Part shown: positions 6,301 to 14,886 of the stretch, piece by piece
Layout: each line of letters opens with the position of its first letter
Position numbering within the stretch: position 1 is the stretch's first letter
NCBI GenBank assembly: GCA_947475895.1
Contig: CANJMF010000014.1
Location: forward strand, 1-64,000
Direction: 5' to 3'
Source of the DNA: Fidelibacterota bacterium
Lineage (GTDB): Bacteria; Pseudomonadota; Alphaproteobacteria; Rhodospirillales; Rhodospirillaceae
Length of the DNA: 64,000 nucleotides
Translations under genes and position numbers: made by a program
The notes under the pieces: model-generated
What the model was told of the DNA's origin: nothing
Seen by the model: only the letters and a program-made list of their open reading frames with translations
Database searches by the model: none

Positions 6301-6568
6301 AGGTCCGGCGGGCGTCGGGCAGGCAGGGCGCAGCCAGTTAGGTGCAATATTAACGCCTTAAGTGCCCAATAATTGCAGCGCTTGATCGATGCTGCGGTGC
6401 GGAAGCAAGTGGTTGTGAACAATGTAACAAATCGCCGTGTCGGGTCGGGTGGGGTGCTTGCGTAGAGGACTAGATAGGGGAAGGTTGCGGGCCTTTGCGT
6501 ACTCTCAATTCGACGGAAGAGAGAGACGCGCCTATCATCGTTCATTGGCATTCGTAGCGTGGTCGACC

Positions 6569-7957
6569 GTGCGAATTTTGCAAAACATTCTGTCTATTTC
6601 GTTCTTCACATTCACGGCTGTCGCGGGTGCTCAGGCATACGCCGCGGCTTCGAAAGAAGACTACCTTCGTGCGCCGATGCCTTTCGGTTTCCAGGTCGTC
6701 GTCTCCGAAGTCGAAGGCCCCGTTTTTGCGGATGCAAAAGGGCACACGCTCTATGTCTGGCCCAAGCGGTCGCTGCGCGCCGGAACGCAAGGCGAGGATG
6801 TCGGTAAGCCGACGTGCGGCAACGAAGTTGTTCGCGAGAGCAGCGGCACTCAGAGTCCTTACCCGGGTGGTTTTGAAATGCCCGAGCTGGAGACGCGGCC
6901 GGCTTGCACGCAAGTTTGGCCGCCGGTTTACGCTCCGGATGATGCGAAGCCTGTTGGAAAATGGTCCGTGCTCCAGCGCCTCGATGGACGCAAACAGTGG
7001 GCCTACGAAAGACGCGCGTTGTACACGTCCAATATGGACAAGGAGCCCGGCGACGTTCTGGGCGGGACCAAGCTTCCCGGCATCGGCGAGGGCAGTGCCG
7101 TGCGAATTCCGGTGGGACCGGAATCAAATGTGCCGGCGCAGTTCAATGTCATGGTGACCATGGCGGGGCGCCTCGTCACTTTGCGCGACAATTGGTCCGT
7201 CTATACCTACGACGGCGACGGCCGCAACAAATCCAATTGTAAAGACGCGTGTCTGGATGAGTGGTCGCCCGTGGTGGCACCGTTCTCATCTGCGACGGTA
7301 GGTGAATGGACCACCTTCGAGCGTTCGCCGGGCGTTCTGCAGTGGGCGTTCCGGGGCCGCCCTGTTTATCGCCATCCCACTGACCTGAAGTTGGGATCCC
7401 AGGACGGAGCCGACATCAAAGGCTGGCACAACGTCTATACGCAGATGACGCCTTCGCCCCCTGCGGGTTTCACCATGAAACCCACGATCGTTGGAATGGG
7501 CCTTGGCGATTCCAAGGGCATGACCATCTACCGCTATATTTGCACCGACGATGGGGCCGATCAGCAGTCCTGTGATTCGCCGGATCATCCGCAAATCTAT
7601 CGTTTCGCCGTGTGCGGCGGCGGCGACCCGGATCGTTGCGTGAAAACGTTCCCCTATCTTATCGCGCCAGCGGGCGCCAAAACCGGCAACAAGATGTGGG
7701 GCACGATGTATATCGATCCCAAAACCGGAAAGCGGGCGACAGCGACAACGCCCGGCGCGCTCAACGTTTGGACGTTGCGCGAGCGGCCGATTTACACATT
7801 TGCCGGATATCGAGGCTATGGCGACCAAAAGTCCTCCGACATAAAGGCAAACGGATGGGGCGAGGGCAACGCCGGACATAACGGCTATATGGCCATCATT
7901 TATCGCGACATTTCCGAAAACCGCGACGGCAATATCGCTCGCAGCGGCGAACGTTAG
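6569..7957 (+). CDS. Exported protein with three COG4315 (Lipoprotein_15-type) repeats
   Basis: About 462 residues if the start is the GTG at 6569. This start is chosen because a signal peptide follows at once (VRILQNILSISFFTFTAVAG...AYA); the frame is open back to 6437 and no good ribosome site marks either start. Three repeats each carry the pattern of an L/V-Y-x-Y/W strand, a Cys-containing loop and a W-x-P-V/L element: HTLYVWPKR with CTQVWPPVYAP, SVYTYDGDG with CKDACLDEWSPVVAP, and MTIYRYICTDDG with CVKTFPYLIAP. COG4315 proteins are secreted and of unknown function. It is the first gene of a tight set with 8005, 9273 and 11031 (gaps of 47, 56 and 18 bases), all exported. A smaller relative lies at 28282. 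Confidence 0.75.
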   Translation: MRILQNILSISFFTFTAVAGAQAYAAASKEDYLRAPMPFGFQVVVSEVEGPVFADAKGHTLYVWPKRSLRAGTQGEDVGKPTCGNEVVRESSGTQSPYPGGFEMPELETRPACTQVWPPVYAPDDAKPVGKWSVLQRLDGRKQWAYERRALYTSNMDKEPGDVLGGTKLPGIGEGSAVRIPVGPESNVPAQFNVMVTMAGRLVTLRDNWSVYTYDGDGRNKSNCKDACLDEWSPVVAPFSSATVGEWTTFERSPGVLQWAFRGRPVYRHPTDLKLGSQDGADIKGWHNVYTQMTPSPPAGFTMKPTIVGMGLGDSKGMTIYRYICTDDGADQQSCDSPDHPQIYRFAVCGGGDPDRCVKTFPYLIAPAGAKTGNKMWGTMYIDPKTGKRATATTPGALNVWTLRERPIYTFAGYRGYGDQKSSDIKANGWGEGNAGHNGYMAIIYRDISENRDGNIARSGER

Positions 7958-8004: not shown

Positions 8005-9216
8005 GTGAAAACACAACGGTCGGTATTGCGGAAAGCGTGGCTTGGCAGCGCGGTCATCGCCGGGTTTGGTGTCGCGGCTTTGGGCGGCGCCAGCATTGCG
8101 GTCGGTGCGAGCGAAACGGCCACGGCCGAACATGCCGCTTTCCCCGACGTTGCTCCGCCGGATCGCACCATCGCGTATGCTTTCACCGAACGTATGGAAG
8201 CTGTATATCAAGCGAAGGATAAAGACGGCAAAGAAACCAGAGAGGAATGTGCGAACGGCCTCAATGAGAGCGGCGCACGTGAACAGTTTGCAGAATCGTT
8301 TCCTCAGACGGATGGCAAAAAGTGGAAATTGGCAGAGAGCCATGTTGCCCGCGAAGCCGAGATTTGGTTTCCGAACACCGGGCCGGATAAATTTCCGTTT
8401 AAAGAAGTGACCGGGAAACTTAGCTACGGCCTTAATCTTGATGGCAAGGTGAAGGCCTCAGACTTCACTTCGCCCGACGGCAAAGTCCAAGGCATCGACA
8501 ATCAGTTCTATCGCGCCGTCGGTTGCATTGCGAGCTACCGTGAAGGCTCGTCGCAGCTGCTGTTCTATGAAGAGTATTTAGAGGGTAAGCAGTTCAATCG
8601 GAACATCGTTGAATTGACGGATGTCGACAGCTTGCAAAACGATGATGACGTGACCGTGACGACGTACCGCGGTCTCGATCCGTTGGTTAAGGACGCGAAG
8701 GGCGATTTCGCGGCGAATGCGACTCAGCGCGTGGACGCGGTGTTCGGAAAAGACTTCATTCAAACGTTCAAAGGCAGGATCGTGAACGGCGTGCTGACAA
8801 CAGCACCGGGCCCCGATTTCGTCTGGGCGAACGAAAACCATACCGACGCATCAACCGAATTCATGCGTGCTGCGCGCTTTGAATTGCATCTGACCCCGGA
8901 GCGGATGGAAGGCGTCATCGGCGGCTATCTCGATGTGGAAACCGGCTACCGAGCCATGATTAAGCGCTACGGCACCCATCAGATCAGTTATGGCAAGCTA
9001 GCAGCCGGGTCCCTATATAAAGTTTTGCGCCGCTTGGCCGACGCTTATCCCGATCCCGTGACAGGCGAGAACACGGCGATCTCCAGTGCCTTGGAAGTCA
9101 AAGGCGCCAGCGTACACCTCGTTCATCCGGACAAGAAAGTCGCCGACGCGGACACGGGCACCCGGCCTAAACAAGTTGCTGCGAACAGCGAACAGGCAAC
9201 TATTGAGAAACGATAA
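8005..9216 (+). CDS. Exported protein of unknown family
   Basis: 403 residues from a GTG preceded by AGGGAGAG. Residues 1-35 look like a signal peptide (hydrophobic run WLGSAVIAGFGVAALGG). The mature part is acidic and soluble-looking with no membrane segment. I see only two cysteines (about C82 and one near 174), which could form a disulfide in the periplasm. I do not recognise the family. The C-terminal tail is polar and low in complexity. It lies between the COG4315-type gene and the DUF1592-type gene in what looks like one transcript, so it may be a subunit or substrate-binding part of that system. No function is assigned. Confidence 0.8.
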   Translation: MKTQRSVLRKAWLGSAVIAGFGVAALGGASIAVGASETATAEHAAFPDVAPPDRTIAYAFTERMEAVYQAKDKDGKETREECANGLNESGAREQFAESFPQTDGKKWKLAESHVAREAEIWFPNTGPDKFPFKEVTGKLSYGLNLDGKVKASDFTSPDGKVQGIDNQFYRAVGCIASYREGSSQLLFYEEYLEGKQFNRNIVELTDVDSLQNDDDVTVTTYRGLDPLVKDAKGDFAANATQRVDAVFGKDFIQTFKGRIVNGVLTTAPGPDFVWANENHTDASTEFMRAARFELHLTPERMEGVIGGYLDVETGYRAMIKRYGTHQISYGKLAAGSLYKVLRRLADAYPDPVTGENTAISSALEVKGASVHLVHPDKKVADADTGTRPKQVAANSEQATIEKR

Positions 9217-9272: not shown

Positions 9273-11012
9273 TTGTTTAGAAATTTAGTACAGTCGGGTT
9301 CTGAAAAACGCAGCGGCGCTGCGTCTAGACTTAGGACGACGTTGCTCGCGGCGGCGTTGCTTGTCGGCAGCGCCCTTGGTGTTTCTCATTCCACTTTTGC
9401 AGAACCGGCGAAAGACGCAGTTGCGGCGGATGTCGGAACGTCGAAGCGTCTGCGCTTGCTGACCACGCAACAGTACGTCAACACGATCCAATATTTCTTT
9501 GGCGCCGATATTAAAGTCGATGCGAAGTTCGCGCCGCTGACGCGTACCGATGGCGTGTTGATGGCGGGCACGTCCGTGGCCGGTGTTAGCGATGCACAAA
9601 TCGAGACTTACCAGAAAATTGCCAACATCGTTTCCACGCAAGTTGTCGACGCCCGGCACCGCGAGACACTGTTTCCATGCAAGCCGCTGGACGACAAAAC
9701 CGCCGATAATGCCTGCGCAACCAAGTTCCTGACGCGCGTCATCGATTATCTGTACTTCATTCCGCCGCCGAAAGAGCACTACGTAAAAATGGTGAACGAA
9801 GCCGGCGTGGCGGCAAAACGCCTCAACGATTTTTATGCCGGCATTCAAGTGGTGCTCGAAAGCGTCCTACTGAATCCCGACGTGCTTCTGGTCGTCGAAA
9901 GCGAAGAACCCGATCCCAGGCACCCGGGCCACATGCGCTTGGATTCATACTCACAAGCGTCGCGCTTGAGCCTGTTTTTGTGGAACGCGGCGCCGGACCC
10001 GGCTTTGCGCGCGGTCGCCAATCGCGGCGATTTGTTTGACAGCAAAAAACGCGCGCGTGTTGTCGACTCAATGCTCGCAAGCCCGCGCTTAGAGACGGGC
10101 GTGCGTGCGTTCTTCGACGACATGTTCGGCTTGGAAGGCACGGAGACGCTCAGCAAGGATGCAACTGTTTATCCGTATTTCTTGGGGGGCATCGCAGCTG
10201 AAGCGCGCGAACAGACGCTGCGAACGGTTGTCGATCAACTGCTTAAAAGAGACGGCGACTACCGTGACCTTTTCACGTCGCGCGAGACGTTTATGTCGCC
10301 GACGCTTGGAATTCTTTACGGCGTGAAGGCATTGCCGGGCTGGAGAGCTTACGAGTTTCCGCCCGAAGCGCATCGCGCCGGAATTCTAACGCAAGCGAGC
10401 TTCCTTGCACTCAACTCGCATTCAACCCGCAGCTCGGCGACGTTACGCGGTAAGGCGCTGCGCGAGTTGATCCTTTGCCAGAAGGTGCCGCCGCCGCCGG
10501 CCAATGTCGATTTCTCGGCTGTCGAGAATCCCGACCCGAAGCTGAAGACGGCACGGCAACGACTTGACCTTCACCGTCAGAACCCAGTGTGCGCAGGTTG
10601 CCATAAAATCACCGATCCGATGGGACTGGCGCTTGAGAATTTCGACGGCGCCGGCCGATATCGCACAGACGAGAAGGGCGCACCGATCGATGCAAGCGGC
10701 AGCCTCGACGGCAAAGCCTTCACGGATGTTGAGGGCCTGGGGCAGGCGCTCCATGACAGCCCGATCCTGCCCACATGCCTCGTGCGGCGCGCGTTCAGCT
10801 ATGCAACCGCGGGCGTCGTGCCGATGTCGGCCGATCCAGCCTTGGCTCAATTCAACAAGACGTTTGCGAGCGAAGGTTATCGTCTGCGTCCGCTGTTAAA
10901 GGCAATTACGCTGAACGATGCTTTCTCGAAGGTCATTGAACCCAGCGCCGCGCCGGCGGCGGAAAAAAGTGCGAGTATTCCGCATCCCGAAAAAGTCGCG
11001 TCGAACCCGTAA
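9273..11012 (+). CDS. DUF1592/DUF1588/DUF1585-type exported protein with one CxxCH
   Basis: 579 residues from a TTG start preceded by GGGAAGAGG. A signal peptide covers about residues 20-44. The N-terminal motif RLLTTQQYVNTIQYFFG resembles DUF1587. The middle (SRLSLFLWNAAPD) is DUF1592-like, HRAGILTQASFLALNSH and LILCQKVPPPP are DUF1588-like, and the end (LVRRAFSYATAG) is DUF1585-like. A single heme c attachment motif CAGCH lies at 440-444, followed by TDPMGLALENFD. Such proteins are common in planctomycetes and acidobacteria, often with an extra N-terminal cytochrome domain that is absent here. It is followed after 18 bases by its usual partner, a DUF1552 protein. The reaction is unknown; a periplasmic redox role is inferred from the heme motif. 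Confidence 0.88.
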   Translation: MFRNLVQSGSEKRSGAASRLRTTLLAAALLVGSALGVSHSTFAEPAKDAVAADVGTSKRLRLLTTQQYVNTIQYFFGADIKVDAKFAPLTRTDGVLMAGTSVAGVSDAQIETYQKIANIVSTQVVDARHRETLFPCKPLDDKTADNACATKFLTRVIDYLYFIPPPKEHYVKMVNEAGVAAKRLNDFYAGIQVVLESVLLNPDVLLVVESEEPDPRHPGHMRLDSYSQASRLSLFLWNAAPDPALRAVANRGDLFDSKKRARVVDSMLASPRLETGVRAFFDDMFGLEGTETLSKDATVYPYFLGGIAAEAREQTLRTVVDQLLKRDGDYRDLFTSRETFMSPTLGILYGVKALPGWRAYEFPPEAHRAGILTQASFLALNSHSTRSSATLRGKALRELILCQKVPPPPANVDFSAVENPDPKLKTARQRLDLHRQNPVCAGCHKITDPMGLALENFDGAGRYRTDEKGAPIDASGSLDGKAFTDVEGLGQALHDSPILPTCLVRRAFSYATAGVVPMSADPALAQFNKTFASEGYRLRPLLKAITLNDAFSKVIEPSAAPAAEKSASIPHPEKVASNP

Positions 11013-11030: not shown

Positions 11031-12368
11031 ATGAAAAATTTCTCTCGCCGTCGCGTCCTTCGCGGCATGTTGAACGGTGGCGCGATTACGGTTGGATTGC
11101 CGCTTCTGGATGCTTTCCTGAACACCAACGGCACCGCCTTTGCCGACGGCAAGCCATTGCCGGTGCGCTTCGGCCTTTGGAGCTGGGGCCTTGGAATGAA
11201 TCACTCGATTTTCGTGCCGAAGAAGACCGGCAAGGATTTCGAGTTCCCGGAAGAAATCGCATGCCTCGCGCCGCTTAAGGATCAAATCAACCTGCTCACG
11301 AATTTCTCGGCGTTCCGTGATGCAGCAGGCTTGGTCGGTCACGTGACGGGCTGGATCATTTCGCGCACGGGCGCTCCGCCGTCCGGCAATAATCTCACCG
11401 CCGAAACGTGGGATATTAAGATCGCCAATCAGATCAGCCGTCAGCAGCGCTTTAAAACGCTGACGGCGACTGGCTCCGCAAACGCGCGAACCTCGTATTC
11501 GTACGAAGATCCGAATACGCCCAATCCGGCGGAATATTCGCCGCTCGATTTCTATGCCCGTTTGTTCGGGCCCGACTTTAACGATCCGAACGCCAAGGAG
11601 TTCAAGCCGAGCCCACGCATCATGTCGCGCAAAAGTGCGCTGTCGGCGGTCGTGGAAGATATGGCGTGGCTCAATAAACGCGTCGGCGCGGACGACAAAG
11701 CGCGTCTCGACAAGTACTTTACCGGCCTGCGTCACCTCGAGAAGCAGTTCGATCAACAGTTGACGAAGCCGGACCCCATTGCGGCTTGCCGCCCGGCGGC
11801 AAATCCAAAAGAAGCCGAAATGAAGATGGGCAATGAATCGCAGTATGTCGAACAACGGCATAAAATGATGGCGGACCTGCTGGCGATGGCAATCGCCTGC
11901 GATCAGACACGCGTCATCACCATGGCTTATGACGACATGTCGTCGAACACCGTTAAGCCGGGATATGAAAAACCGCACCACACAAGCACGCACGAGGAGC
12001 CGATCGACGAAAAACTCGGCTATCAGCCGACCTGTTCGTGGTTTACGCGTCGTTCCATGGAAGGGTTTGCCTATTTCGTGAAAGCCTTCGCAGACATCAA
12101 AGAAGGCGACGGCACGCTCCTCGACAACATGCTCGTCGTGGCCGACACCGATCACGGCGATGCGCGTGTGCACTCGTTGGAAAACATGCCCATGTTCACG
12201 GCCGGCCGCGCCGGCGGTAAATTCAAGACCGGATTGCACGTCGATATGAAGGGCGCCCCGTTGTCGCGGATGGCGCTCACGGCGATGCGCACGATGGGCA
12301 TGGATATTCAGAAGTTCGGCGGTGGCAGCAACCTGACGTCTGATTCTATCAGCGAAATTTTGGTGTAA
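11031..12368 (+). CDS. DUF1552-type Tat-exported protein
   Basis: 445 residues from an ATG preceded by GAGGAG. The N-terminus carries SRRRVLRGML followed by a hydrophobic segment, a Tat-type export signal. The body has family features such as RFGLWSWGLGMNHSIFVPK, DMAWLNKRVGADDKARLDKY and LVVADTDHGDARVHSLENMP. DUF1552 proteins are almost always encoded next to DUF1592 proteins, as here, and their function is unknown. They distantly resemble alkaline-phosphatase-fold or DUF1501-type exported proteins. Tat export suggests it folds, perhaps with a cofactor, before leaving the cytoplasm. It ends the four-gene operon; a hairpin with T-run follows. Confidence 0.88.
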   Translation: MKNFSRRRVLRGMLNGGAITVGLPLLDAFLNTNGTAFADGKPLPVRFGLWSWGLGMNHSIFVPKKTGKDFEFPEEIACLAPLKDQINLLTNFSAFRDAAGLVGHVTGWIISRTGAPPSGNNLTAETWDIKIANQISRQQRFKTLTATGSANARTSYSYEDPNTPNPAEYSPLDFYARLFGPDFNDPNAKEFKPSPRIMSRKSALSAVVEDMAWLNKRVGADDKARLDKYFTGLRHLEKQFDQQLTKPDPIAACRPAANPKEAEMKMGNESQYVEQRHKMMADLLAMAIACDQTRVITMAYDDMSSNTVKPGYEKPHHTSTHEEPIDEKLGYQPTCSWFTRRSMEGFAYFVKAFADIKEGDGTLLDNMLVVADTDHGDARVHSLENMPMFTAGRAGGKFKTGLHVDMKGAPLSRMALTAMRTMGMDIQKFGGGSNLTSDSISEILV

Positions 12369-12373
12369 TTGAT

Positions 12374-12408
12374 ATCGCGCGCGGGCAACTGCGCGCGATT
12401 TTCGTTTT
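12374..12408 (+). terminator. Rho-independent terminator after the DUF1592/DUF1552 operon
   Basis: Perfect 9-bp stem ATCGCGCGC (12374-12382) with GCGCGCGAT (12391-12399), followed by TTTTCGTTTT. It begins 5 bases after the DUF1552 stop codon. Confidence 0.8.
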
Positions 12409-12481
12409 GAAGCCGGGGATGATCATCATTTAACGCGCTCATGGAGCGTAAGAGTTTTTGAGTTTTATAGGGGAGGGGTCC

Positions 12482-13765
12482 GTGAATAATCCGACGAACG
12501 TCAATACGAGCCGCCGCAGGCTTCTGCAGTATCTTGCAGCAAGCCCGGTCGTTGCCGCAGGCACAAAAGAAGCAATCGCCGCGACAATGGCGGAGATGCA
12601 GACACGTTCGGACGACCCATATATTTGGCGTCCTTTCGATCCTAACTACTTAATTGAAAAGCCCGAAGACGCATTGGATGTCTTCGAATTTGAACCCGTC
12701 GCCCACAAAAATGTCGGGGCAGCTCACTGGGGCTTCATGTCCACCGGCGCTGATGGTGAAGGCACATATCGCGCCAACCGCCAGGACATTGCTAAATTCG
12801 CGATGCGTTCGCACCGTTTGCGCGATGTCACAAAGGTGGACCCCAGTGTGACGTTGTTCGGCCACACATGGTCGGCGCCTTTCTTGACCTGCCCGACAGG
12901 CCGAAACGGCATGTACCATCCGGACGGTGAGGCGGGTGTTGGCCGCGCGGCGGGACGGCATAATATTCCTCAGGGCCTTGCGACTAATGCGAACTTCTCG
13001 ATTACGGAAGTCAATAAAGCCCGCAACGGCACGCCTGTGCTGTTTCAGTTGTACCAGCAATCAAATTGGGAAATTTCAAAGTCGCTCATCGCACGCGCTG
13101 AACGTGAAGGCTGCAAAGCAATCCTCCTCACGGTCGACGGCTTGTCGGCGCGTAAGGATTTGCAGTTCAATCGCGCCGTGCGAGCAGATACGCGCCTCTG
13201 CGCGACTTGCCATGAAGTGCGGCCCAACAATCCCAAGAGTCCGATTCTCTCTTCCAAGAGCACAGCGAACTTCTCCGAGGTTCCTGCGGAACTTTGGGAT
13301 CAGAAGTTCACCCCGGACAAGATGACGTGGGAATACGTAAAGCGCGTGCGCGACTTCACGAAGATGGATATCTTTGTCAAAGGCATCACGGACGTCGATG
13401 ACGCTGTGCAGTGCGCCAAGCTGGGTTATGGCGTGTGGGTTTCCAACCATGGCGGCCGTAACGAAGACACCAATAGATCCTCGATCGCGTGTCTCGCGGA
13501 CATCGCGCCGGCAGTTAAGGGCAAAGTTCCCATCGTTATCGACAGCGGTTTCCGCCGCGGCATGGATATCGTGAAAGCCCTTTCGATGGGTGCGACGATG
13601 GTGGGTTTCGGCCGTCCCTACATTTGGGGCCTCGGCGCGTTCGGTGAAGCGGGCGTCGATAAGGTGATCCAAATCATGAAAGCGGAAGTGATCGCCGCCA
13701 TGCAGCAGGTTGGAGCCACCAGCGTGAAGGAATTGCGTCCCGACATGGTCATCCGCGCGCTCTAA
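12482..13765 (+). CDS. FMN-dependent 2-hydroxyacid oxidase/dehydrogenase, Tat-type, with CxxCH
   Basis: 427 residues. The GTG at 12482 is preferred over the in-frame TTG at 12458 because GGGGAGGGG lies 4 bases upstream. The fold is the TIM barrel of lactate/glycolate oxidases, which oxidise 2-hydroxyacids to 2-oxoacids. Family residues are present: Tyr in QLYQQ, Asp in LLTVDG, Lys in FVKGI, and the His/Arg pair in SNHGGR. The usual active-site Tyr of the first strand is Phe at about 85 (GFMSTGAD). The N-terminus has TSRRRLLQYLAASP, a Tat-like signal, so it may be periplasmic. A heme c motif CATCH lies at 240-244 in the variable loop, rare for this family. If heme is attached, it could pass electrons to a cytochrome instead of oxygen. 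It appears monocistronic, with a terminator after it. Confidence 0.88.
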   Translation: MNNPTNVNTSRRRLLQYLAASPVVAAGTKEAIAATMAEMQTRSDDPYIWRPFDPNYLIEKPEDALDVFEFEPVAHKNVGAAHWGFMSTGADGEGTYRANRQDIAKFAMRSHRLRDVTKVDPSVTLFGHTWSAPFLTCPTGRNGMYHPDGEAGVGRAAGRHNIPQGLATNANFSITEVNKARNGTPVLFQLYQQSNWEISKSLIARAEREGCKAILLTVDGLSARKDLQFNRAVRADTRLCATCHEVRPNNPKSPILSSKSTANFSEVPAELWDQKFTPDKMTWEYVKRVRDFTKMDIFVKGITDVDDAVQCAKLGYGVWVSNHGGRNEDTNRSSIACLADIAPAVKGKVPIVIDSGFRRGMDIVKALSMGATMVGFGRPYIWGLGAFGEAGVDKVIQIMKAEVIAAMQQVGATSVKELRPDMVIRAL

Positions 13766-13789
13766 ATAGAGTCAGGCTTCAGTAAGAAA

Positions 13790-13831
13790 CCCCTCGTATC
13801 GCCGCTGAGCGATGTGAGGGGTCTTGTTTTT
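13790..13831 (+). terminator. Rho-independent terminator after the hydroxyacid oxidase
   Basis: 13-bp stem with two G:U pairs (13790-13802 with 13809-13821), loop CGCTGA, then TCTTGTTTTT. Confidence 0.8.
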
Positions 13832-13962: not shown

Positions 13963-14886
13963 ATGACGCAGACGAACGACCGGAAGAAAATTCCTGCGGA
14001 AGCGGTAGACCTCTATACGCAGTTTATTCATGGCGAGATTGGCCGCCGTGACTTCCTCGATGGCGTGAAACGTTTTGCAATCGGCGGCCTTTCCGCCACG
14101 GCCATTGTCGAAGCGTTGATGCCCAACTATGCATTGGGGCAACAGGTTCGTAAGGACGACGAGCGTATCAAAGCCAGTTACGAGACAGTGCCCTCACCAG
14201 ATGGTAACGGGTACATCAGGGGGTATCTCGTACGACCATTCAGCGCAGATTCGCGCTCTGCCACCCCAGCGAAGCTGCCCGGCATTATCGTCATTCACGA
14301 AAATCGGGGTTTGAACCCCCATACGGAAGACGTCGCGCGGCGCTTCGCGCTTGAGAACTTCATGGCATTTGCGCCGGACGCACTTTCGTCGGTCGGGGGC
14401 TATCCGGGCGATGACTTTAAGGGCGGCGAGCTTTTCAGCAAAATCGACCCTGCGAGGAGGACTCAAGATTTCGTCGCCGCTGCGCGATGGTTGAAAGCGC
14501 GGCCAGATTGCACGGGGAAAATTGGCGCAACGGGCTTTTGCTTCGGCGGCGGTTTGTCTAATACGTTGTCGACGCTACTCGGGCCGGAATTGGGAGCTGC
14601 TGCACCGTTCTACGGTACAGCCGCCAAACCAGAGGACGTTTCAAAAATCAGCGCGGCGATTCTTATTCATCACGGCGCGCTCGATAAGAATTTGTCGGCG
14701 GCCTATCCCGCCCAAGAGGCGGAGCTGAAAAAGAACAAAATCCGGTACGAAGGCCATGTCTATCCGGATTCGGTCCATGGCTTCTTCAATGACGCCACAC
14801 CGGAGCGCTACAACAAGGTCACGGCCTCACAGGCATGGGCGCGCACGATCGAGTGGTTCAATAAGTACGTTCGCGAATCGGCGTAA
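13963..14886 (+). CDS. Dienelactone hydrolase family protein, Tat-type signal
   Basis: 307 residues from an ATG preceded by GAGGGAG. The core is an alpha/beta hydrolase of the dienelactone hydrolase family. The nucleophile is Cys in ATGFCFGGGLS, the acid is Asp in HHGALDKN and the base is His in SVHGFFND. Near residue 29 the motif GRRDFLDGVKRFAIGGLSA, followed by EALMPNYALG, looks like a Tat export signal with a long N-region. Typical cytoplasmic enzymes of about 235 residues lack this extension. It probably hydrolyses an ester or lactone in the periplasm; the substrate is not known. It follows the hydroxyacid oxidase after a terminator and has its own leader. It converges on the MFS gene at 14920. 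Confidence 0.87.
   Translation: MTQTNDRKKIPAEAVDLYTQFIHGEIGRRDFLDGVKRFAIGGLSATAIVEALMPNYALGQQVRKDDERIKASYETVPSPDGNGYIRGYLVRPFSADSRSATPAKLPGIIVIHENRGLNPHTEDVARRFALENFMAFAPDALSSVGGYPGDDFKGGELFSKIDPARRTQDFVAAARWLKARPDCTGKIGATGFCFGGGLSNTLSTLLGPELGAAAPFYGTAAKPEDVSKISAAILIHHGALDKNLSAAYPAQEAELKKNKIRYEGHVYPDSVHGFFNDATPERYNKVTASQAWARTIEWFNKYVRESA

Follow-up and report, generated by a model that had tools for sequence, protein, structure and literature searches.

A gene in the stretch of DNA analysed here (the window, 64,000 nucleotides in length) encodes a protein that is best read, from its sequence, as a Tat-exported, single-domain FMN 2-hydroxyacid dehydrogenase of the FMN_dh family that would bear a single covalently attached heme c on the flexible lid of its active site, loop 4; we put the probability of this reading at roughly 78%. 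The sequence-only reading had proposed such a single-domain flavocytochrome c, and this proposal continues to account best for the data because the Tat-type signal and the CxxCH motif occur together, because the CxxCH is conserved, and because the genome holds genes for cytochrome c assembly and for TatC. The new element is a predicted heme c motif within the lid of an FMN_dh 2-hydroxyacid dehydrogenase. If this reading is true, one domain does the work for which yeast flavocytochrome b2 uses two, and there is a second, simpler route from the lactate/glycolate oxidase fold to a cytochrome-linked dehydrogenase, by gain of a heme c site in the lid as opposed to domain fusion. It would also raise the question of how the cytochrome c maturation system deals with a protein that is folded before Tat exports it. 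How the heme site was gained can be approached by experiment, as a near relative lacks the heme motif, and a small enzyme with a built-in heme could conceivably serve direct electron transfer electrodes for hydroxyacids.

The gene product and its relation to known flavoenzymes

The open frame encodes 427 aa from a GTG start (Table 1). The Pfam family FMN_dh (PF01070) matches residues 74-423 with an E-value of 2.4e-100 (336.4 bits against a curated cut-off of 24.9); at E-values up to 0.001, the only other Pfam match is a sub-threshold match to IMPDH, and neither a cytochrome b5 domain (PF00173) nor a cytochrome c domain (PF00034 or like) is found in the protein. Asp219, Lys300, His323, and Arg326 are kept in all 81 FMN_dh proteins that were aligned, and the last three are presumably the catalytic residues of FMN_dh enzymes. 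With regard to a more specific assignment, the protein falls below all NCBIfam cut-offs, including that of its best match, NF008398 (L-lactate dehydrogenase; 200.8 of 376 bits), as well as those of L-lactate oxidase TIGR02708 (173.5 of 645.5), LldD NF033901 (176.4 of 550), and MftD TIGR03966 (167.8 of 470.85). PDB relatives by sequence are lactate oxidases, HAO1, HAO2, glycolate oxidases, mandelate dehydrogenase, and flavocytochrome b2, and the likeliest substrate is an L-2-hydroxyacid such as lactate or glycolate. A structure prediction from two sequences (P0001 and L001) had a mean pLDDT of 33.6.

Table 1. Features of the FMN_dh gene, its product and its surroundings, by position in the window
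Feature	Position	Strand	Basis or remark
Neighbour, Lipoprotein_15 (secreted repeat) protein	6437..7957	+	Pfam
Neighbour, 403-aa protein, no Pfam match (E up to 0.1)	8005..9216	+	
Neighbour, DUF1587/1592/1588/1585 (PSD3/PSD4/PSCyt3/PSD2) protein, CAGCH at 10590-10604	9273..11012	+	partner by proximity only
Neighbour, DUF1552 protein (HXXSHH), SRRR near N-terminus	11031..12368	+	
Terminator-like hairpin between DUF1552 and FMN_dh genes, 11 pairs, T-rich tail	12374..12399	+	consensus match
Shine-Dalgarno-like GGGGAGGGG ahead of GTG start	12470..12478	+	
FMN_dh protein with Tat-type signal and CxxCH, proposed single-domain flavocytochrome c 2-hydroxyacid dehydrogenase	12482..13765	+	open frame, PF01070
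Tat-type motif SRRRLLQ, residues 10-16	12509..12529	+	RR in 28/28 members
His82, clade-specific invariant, candidate distal heme ligand	12725..12727	+	28/28 members, 0/53 non-members
Phe85 at active-site Tyr position	12734..12736	+	
Asp236 and Arg238 of loop-4 motif DxRxCxxCH, invariant in 28 members	13187..13195	+	
CATCH, residues 240-244, loop-4 segment	13199..13213	+	
Lys300, His323, Arg326 stretch, invariant in 81 aligned FMN_dh proteins	13379..13459	+	
Terminator-like hairpin 3' of FMN_dh gene, 14 pairs	13789..13822	+	consensus match

The protein resembles flavocytochrome b2 in its FMN_dh barrel (profile match to 1fcb with an E-value of 2.9e-79) and, as proposed, in having one heme close to the FMN and cytochrome c as acceptor. 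However, the heme b of flavocytochrome b2 sits in a separate domain, whereas the window protein lacks a cytochrome b5 domain and has its CxxCH in the barrel's own loop 4; flavocytochrome b2 is also imported into mitochondria, whereas the window protein has a Tat-type signal. Tyr143 of flavocytochrome b2 contacts a heme propionate. Glycolate oxidase, HAO1, and lactate oxidase, which are soluble intracellular oxidases, have the fold, the catalytic-type residues, and loop 4 in common with the window protein, but their aligned chains have no CxxCH, and HAO1 has Ile in the place of His82. (S)-Mandelate dehydrogenase is likewise an FMN_dh member and is not known to have a heme motif or a Tat signal. 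p-Cresol methylhydroxylase, flavocytochrome c sulfide dehydrogenase, and flavocytochrome c3 have other flavin folds with separate cytochrome c subunits or domains, and none of them is an FMN 2-hydroxyacid dehydrogenase.

In its available text, a review of cytochrome-carrying flavoenzymes describes these last three as flavoenzymes with heme c, places the FMN and heme b of flavocytochrome b2 in two hinge-joined domains at an edge distance of 0.53 nm, gives flavocytochrome b2 as the lactate enzyme, with cytochrome c as its acceptor, and lists no heme c FMN 2-hydroxyacid dehydrogenase (PMC6472588). A survey of EC 1.1.3.15, as far as its accessible portion goes, attributes a quinone acceptor and a longer loop 4 to (S)-mandelate dehydrogenase and reports, for an FMN_dh cluster of 230 sequences, a cytochrome b5 heme-binding domain in six and an extended loop 4 in 50; no mention of CxxCH was found in that portion (PMC8491902). 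Finally, no report of heme c in an FMN 2-hydroxyacid dehydrogenase was found in searches of open-licence PMC text.

A conserved CxxCH in the active-site lid, a putative export signal and a candidate second heme ligand

Both sequence elements from which the idea of a flavocytochrome c had started, an RRRLL-type N-terminus and a CATCH motif at residues 240-244, were borne out. The Tat consensus is an S/T-R-R-x-F-L-K-like motif at the N-terminus, and the SRRRLLQ of the window protein is a match by our criterion for a Tat-like motif. In a profile alignment to human HAO1, the CxxCH follows the TVD motif and hence falls in loop 4, which joins strand 4 to helix 4. The window contains 57 stop-to-stop frames of at least 200 aa, 24,036 residues in all, and just two of them have a CxxCH, namely the FMN_dh protein and the neighbouring DUF1592/DUF1588 protein.

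An alignment of 81 FMN_dh proteins was used to follow these elements through the family; its rows were frames of at least 350 aa that scored at least 100 bits and had a distinct C-terminal part, and they comprised 28 members of the clade to which the window protein belongs and 53 other proteins. R11, R12, H82, D236, R238, C240, C243, and H244 are present in all 28 clade members; the CxxCH lies at the same loop-4 place in each of them and was found in none of the 53 aligned non-members. The two residues between the cysteines form 14 different pairs among the 28 members, so the conserved part is the cysteines and the histidine, and a chance CxxCH, kept in every member with that many different fillings, can be ruled out. 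Nine further members, all from genus g56 (that of Methylobacterium bullatum), without exception have the CxxCH, the P-A-H motif of His82, and the RR motif. Lack of conservation in close homologues had been named beforehand as what would refute a heme; the motif is kept in close and in distant members alike. Co-occurrence of CxxCH and RRxLL, also suggested in advance, holds in one direction: it is seen in 28/28 clade members and 9/9 further members, but two of the 53 non-members, here called L118 and L116, match the RR pattern (RRx[FLIVM][LMIV], sought among residues 1-150) without a CxxCH. Strict two-way co-occurrence is hence ruled out; the CxxCH goes with a Tat-type signal, and the signal does not require a CxxCH.

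When His, Met, Lys, and Cys positions were scanned for residues invariant in the members and rare elsewhere, H82, C240, C243, and H244 were the only ones; the next residue, Lys294, is present in 26 of the 28 members and also in L118. His82, a feature beyond those that the sequence-only reading had noted, lies three residues before the active-site Tyr position and aligns with Ile23 of human HAO1, three residues before HAO1 Tyr26; as judged from conservation, it is the strongest candidate to be the distal ligand of the heme. We take the Tyr at aligned position 85 (HAO1 Tyr26) to be the active-site Tyr of GOX and HAO1. The replacement of this Tyr, which GOX/HAO1-type enzymes have, by Phe had been regarded as a peculiarity of the window protein; Phe85 is indeed present, but it is not a family hallmark, as position 85 is Tyr in 19 members, Phe in 6, and Trp, His, and Ser in one each. 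As a separate observation, a tandem clade member in genome G009 (L004, 2437-3741) has Ala at the Tyr191 position, with the adjoining copy keeping Tyr, and is possibly a diverged paralogue.

From this pattern we infer a covalent heme on the window protein, and the following course of events is proposed. The enzyme would fold around FMN in the cytoplasm and then cross the membrane by Tat; in the periplasm, the maturation machinery would attach heme c to the still accessible loop 4, with His244 as the proximal and probably His82 as the distal ligand. The FMN would be reduced by a 2-hydroxyacid and would hand its electrons singly to the adjacent heme, from which they would pass to a soluble cytochrome c and on to the respiratory chain. 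The genome of the window encodes TatC (C2:401067-401726) and has two matches over the cut-off to the cytochrome c assembly family PF01578 (G000:C1:170822-171334 and 172440-173063). Tat carries folded proteins, and heme attachment requires accessible cysteines; the order of export and heme attachment is thus a difficulty, which the flexibility of loop 4 eases and does not remove. According to the available text of two papers on relatives, this loop is flexible, sometimes invisible in crystals, and contributes to catalysis (PMC10153336), and it could serve as a lid (PMC4908395). A more specific form of the proposal, to which we give slightly less than even odds, is that ligation of the loop-4 heme c by both His244 and His82 would close the lid and put the heme near the place where the heme domain of flavocytochrome b2 docks, in a folded Tat cargo that would be given its heme c after export.

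The same residues can be explained differently. C240, C243, H244, and H82 are invariant and could hold a metal, and the CxxCH might form a disulfide or bind a metal (Zn, Cu, Fe-S) so as to stiffen or regulate loop 4, with His82 as a further metal ligand or a substrate-binding residue. We regard this as distinctly unlikely, since the exact CxxCH spacing with variable intervening residues, the combination of a Tat-type signal with cytochrome c assembly genes in the genome, and the cytochrome c genes beside some members (see below) all fit heme c better, and since the family already has a cytochrome c reductase, flavocytochrome b2, in the accessible portion of the EC 1.1.3.15 survey (PMC8491902). 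Alternatively, heme may be attached and the enzyme be a periplasmic oxidase that forms hydrogen peroxide, with the heme having a structural role or disposing of peroxide; many PDB relatives are oxidases, but a heme on the active-site lid would suggest an electron relay, and we consider this explanation highly improbable.

Distribution of the clade and its nearest outsiders

To define the distribution of the clade, profile A1 (20 rows, of which one, L001, was the single locus given by a search of genome contigs for related loci, and the others came from a protein search of 61 genomes) was run on 73 genomes of the window's family, 398 of its phylum, 385 of its class, and 297 of its order, as well as on three more sets, of 116, 119, and 115 genomes, each built around a different genome; these sets overlap, and all genome searches were confined to the window's phylum. 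At most four candidates per genome were scored in the phylum and class sets and at most six in the order set, and counts from these sets are lower bounds. The window's genome has six clade members, on C14 (the window), C16, C21, and C7 and, in tandem, two on C6; C9 encodes one FMN_dh protein from outside the clade, and C16 also has a short fragment (C16:340-471). A member is present in 9 of 19 genomes of the window's genus, and within the family also in G020, G035, and G090; outside the family, members were found in f22 (same order) and in f27, f33, f40, and f117 (same class). No member-level score was found outside the class in the phylum sample (398 genomes, up to four candidates scored in each). 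The member gene of G124, which is Methylobacterium bullatum or very near it, differs from NZ_LR743510 at 2 of 1527 bases; accordingly, the class to which the window's genome belongs is probably Alphaproteobacteria. A contig titled as a Bacteroidetes MAG (L001, CANJZE010000054.1) encodes FMN_dh, DUF1552, and DUF1592 proteins that are 84%, 77%, and 71% identical, respectively, to those of the window, and is probably mislabelled.

The tree was built from the aligned proteins without loop 4, the N-terminal part, and column 82, and was rooted at its midpoint; the window is represented by copy L002, the G124 gene (alike in 1525 of 1527 bases) stands in for L115, and L120-L128 are not included. All 28 members lie on one side of a branch with support 100/98, and L118 adjoins this clade with support 100/99. 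Bit scores follow the same division, with members at 491 or more, L118 at 384-389, and other FMN_dh proteins at 294 or less. L118 is an FMN_dh protein of genome G669 (1492-2697) with a Tat-type signal, no CxxCH, and Ile for His82. It has R11, R12, S21, A64, F68, R112, W382, and F387 in common with the members, but has Asn for Asp236, Lys for Arg238, and gaps at Cys240, Cys243, and His244, and it differs from them also at A81 and R288. The cysteines and His82 thus change on one and the same branch, and their association in the 28 members counts as a single event; it is suggestive of a functional link, not proof of one. L118 is a possible 'before' state of the heme clade. Like the window protein, L118 and L116 are FMN_dh proteins with an RR-type N-terminus, but both lack the CxxCH and His82. 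L116 (NZ_CP072497.1, 43048-44235), annotated as an alpha-hydroxy-acid oxidizing protein, is encoded on a conjugative Klebsiella pneumoniae plasmid and has a Tat-like N-terminus and no heme motif. It was among the matches listed in a plasmid protein search in which 821 records had a match, and matches of its extent are found on many Klebsiella plasmid records, among those listed.

Genomic context and possible electron partners

The FMN_dh gene follows the four plus-strand neighbours of Table 1, from the Lipoprotein_15 gene to the DUF1552 gene, with successive genes separated by 47, 56, 18, and 113 bases. The last of these gaps contains a terminator-like hairpin and another such hairpin follows the FMN_dh gene, which may hence be a transcription unit of its own; 6 of 200 shuffles fold as well as the hairpin in the gap, and the scan for terminators returned 8 such sites against a mean of 2.3 in shuffles.

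Electron exchange in the periplasm between the FMN_dh protein and the neighbouring DUF1592 protein had been suggested in the sequence-only reading. The single CxxCH of this neighbour is confirmed, but the link between the two proteins is weak. DUF1592 and DUF1552 genes are found beside a member in the window and, in varying order, at 5 of 26 other member loci (L001, L032, L033, L037, and L039), of which four are in the window's genus and one is the MAG contig L001. These 26 remain of 27 loci after L118 is set aside; some of the contigs are short, L111 is a near-copy of L115, and L120-L128 are outside the count. We consider it doubtful that the FMN_dh protein and the DUF1592/PSCyt3 cytochrome act as a pair in a shared periplasmic pathway, a notion that is compatible with the heme c reading: no other long frame of the window has a CxxCH and the neighbourhood recurs with changed gene order at the five loci, but it is absent at the other 21 of 26 (some on short contigs), and in the window the hairpin separates the genes. 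In the window's genome, DUF1592-type proteins are the only other CxxCH-bearing frames at the member loci. Nothing was known about the function of PSCyt-encoding genes, according to the available text of one source (PMC5615132).

Elsewhere, some members adjoin a cytochrome c gene or another CxxCH-bearing frame. In G124 and G1056 the member has a PF00034 cytochrome c gene immediately upstream, and in G1085 and G1057 a CAACH-bearing frame takes this place; such an upstream gene or frame was thus seen in 4 of the 12 member-holding genomes of genus g56, in two cases with Pfam confirmation. Beside the members of the other eight, no further CxxCH frame of at least 90 aa was found in flanks of about 1.5 kb (six genomes) or about 7 kb (two genomes). 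A partner gene conserved across the whole family was not found among the neighbours looked at. Ten neighbours picked by hand at nine loci, which do not constitute a census, comprised two NHL-repeat proteins, glyoxalase-like, ChrB_C, DUF1554, and polyketide-cyclase-like proteins, sub-threshold matches to cupin and carboxypeptidase-regulatory families, one cytochrome c, and one protein without a match.

Further neighbours were seen more than once. The 403-aa protein is an unnamed member of the cassette, with relatives (35-60% identity) adjoining members at four other loci (L032, L033, L035, with three frames, and L039). Relatives of the window's Lipoprotein_15 protein adjoin clade members at L001, L032, L033, L035, and L039. 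NHL-repeat proteins adjoin clade members in two different genomes (L032, 3686-4852; L040, 3694-4941) and are a possible recurrent neighbour. Finally, downstream of the FMN_dh gene in the window (13963-14886, plus strand), a YghX-like dienelactone hydrolase is encoded, which scores below the NCBIfam cut-off and has an RR-type segment near its N-terminus.
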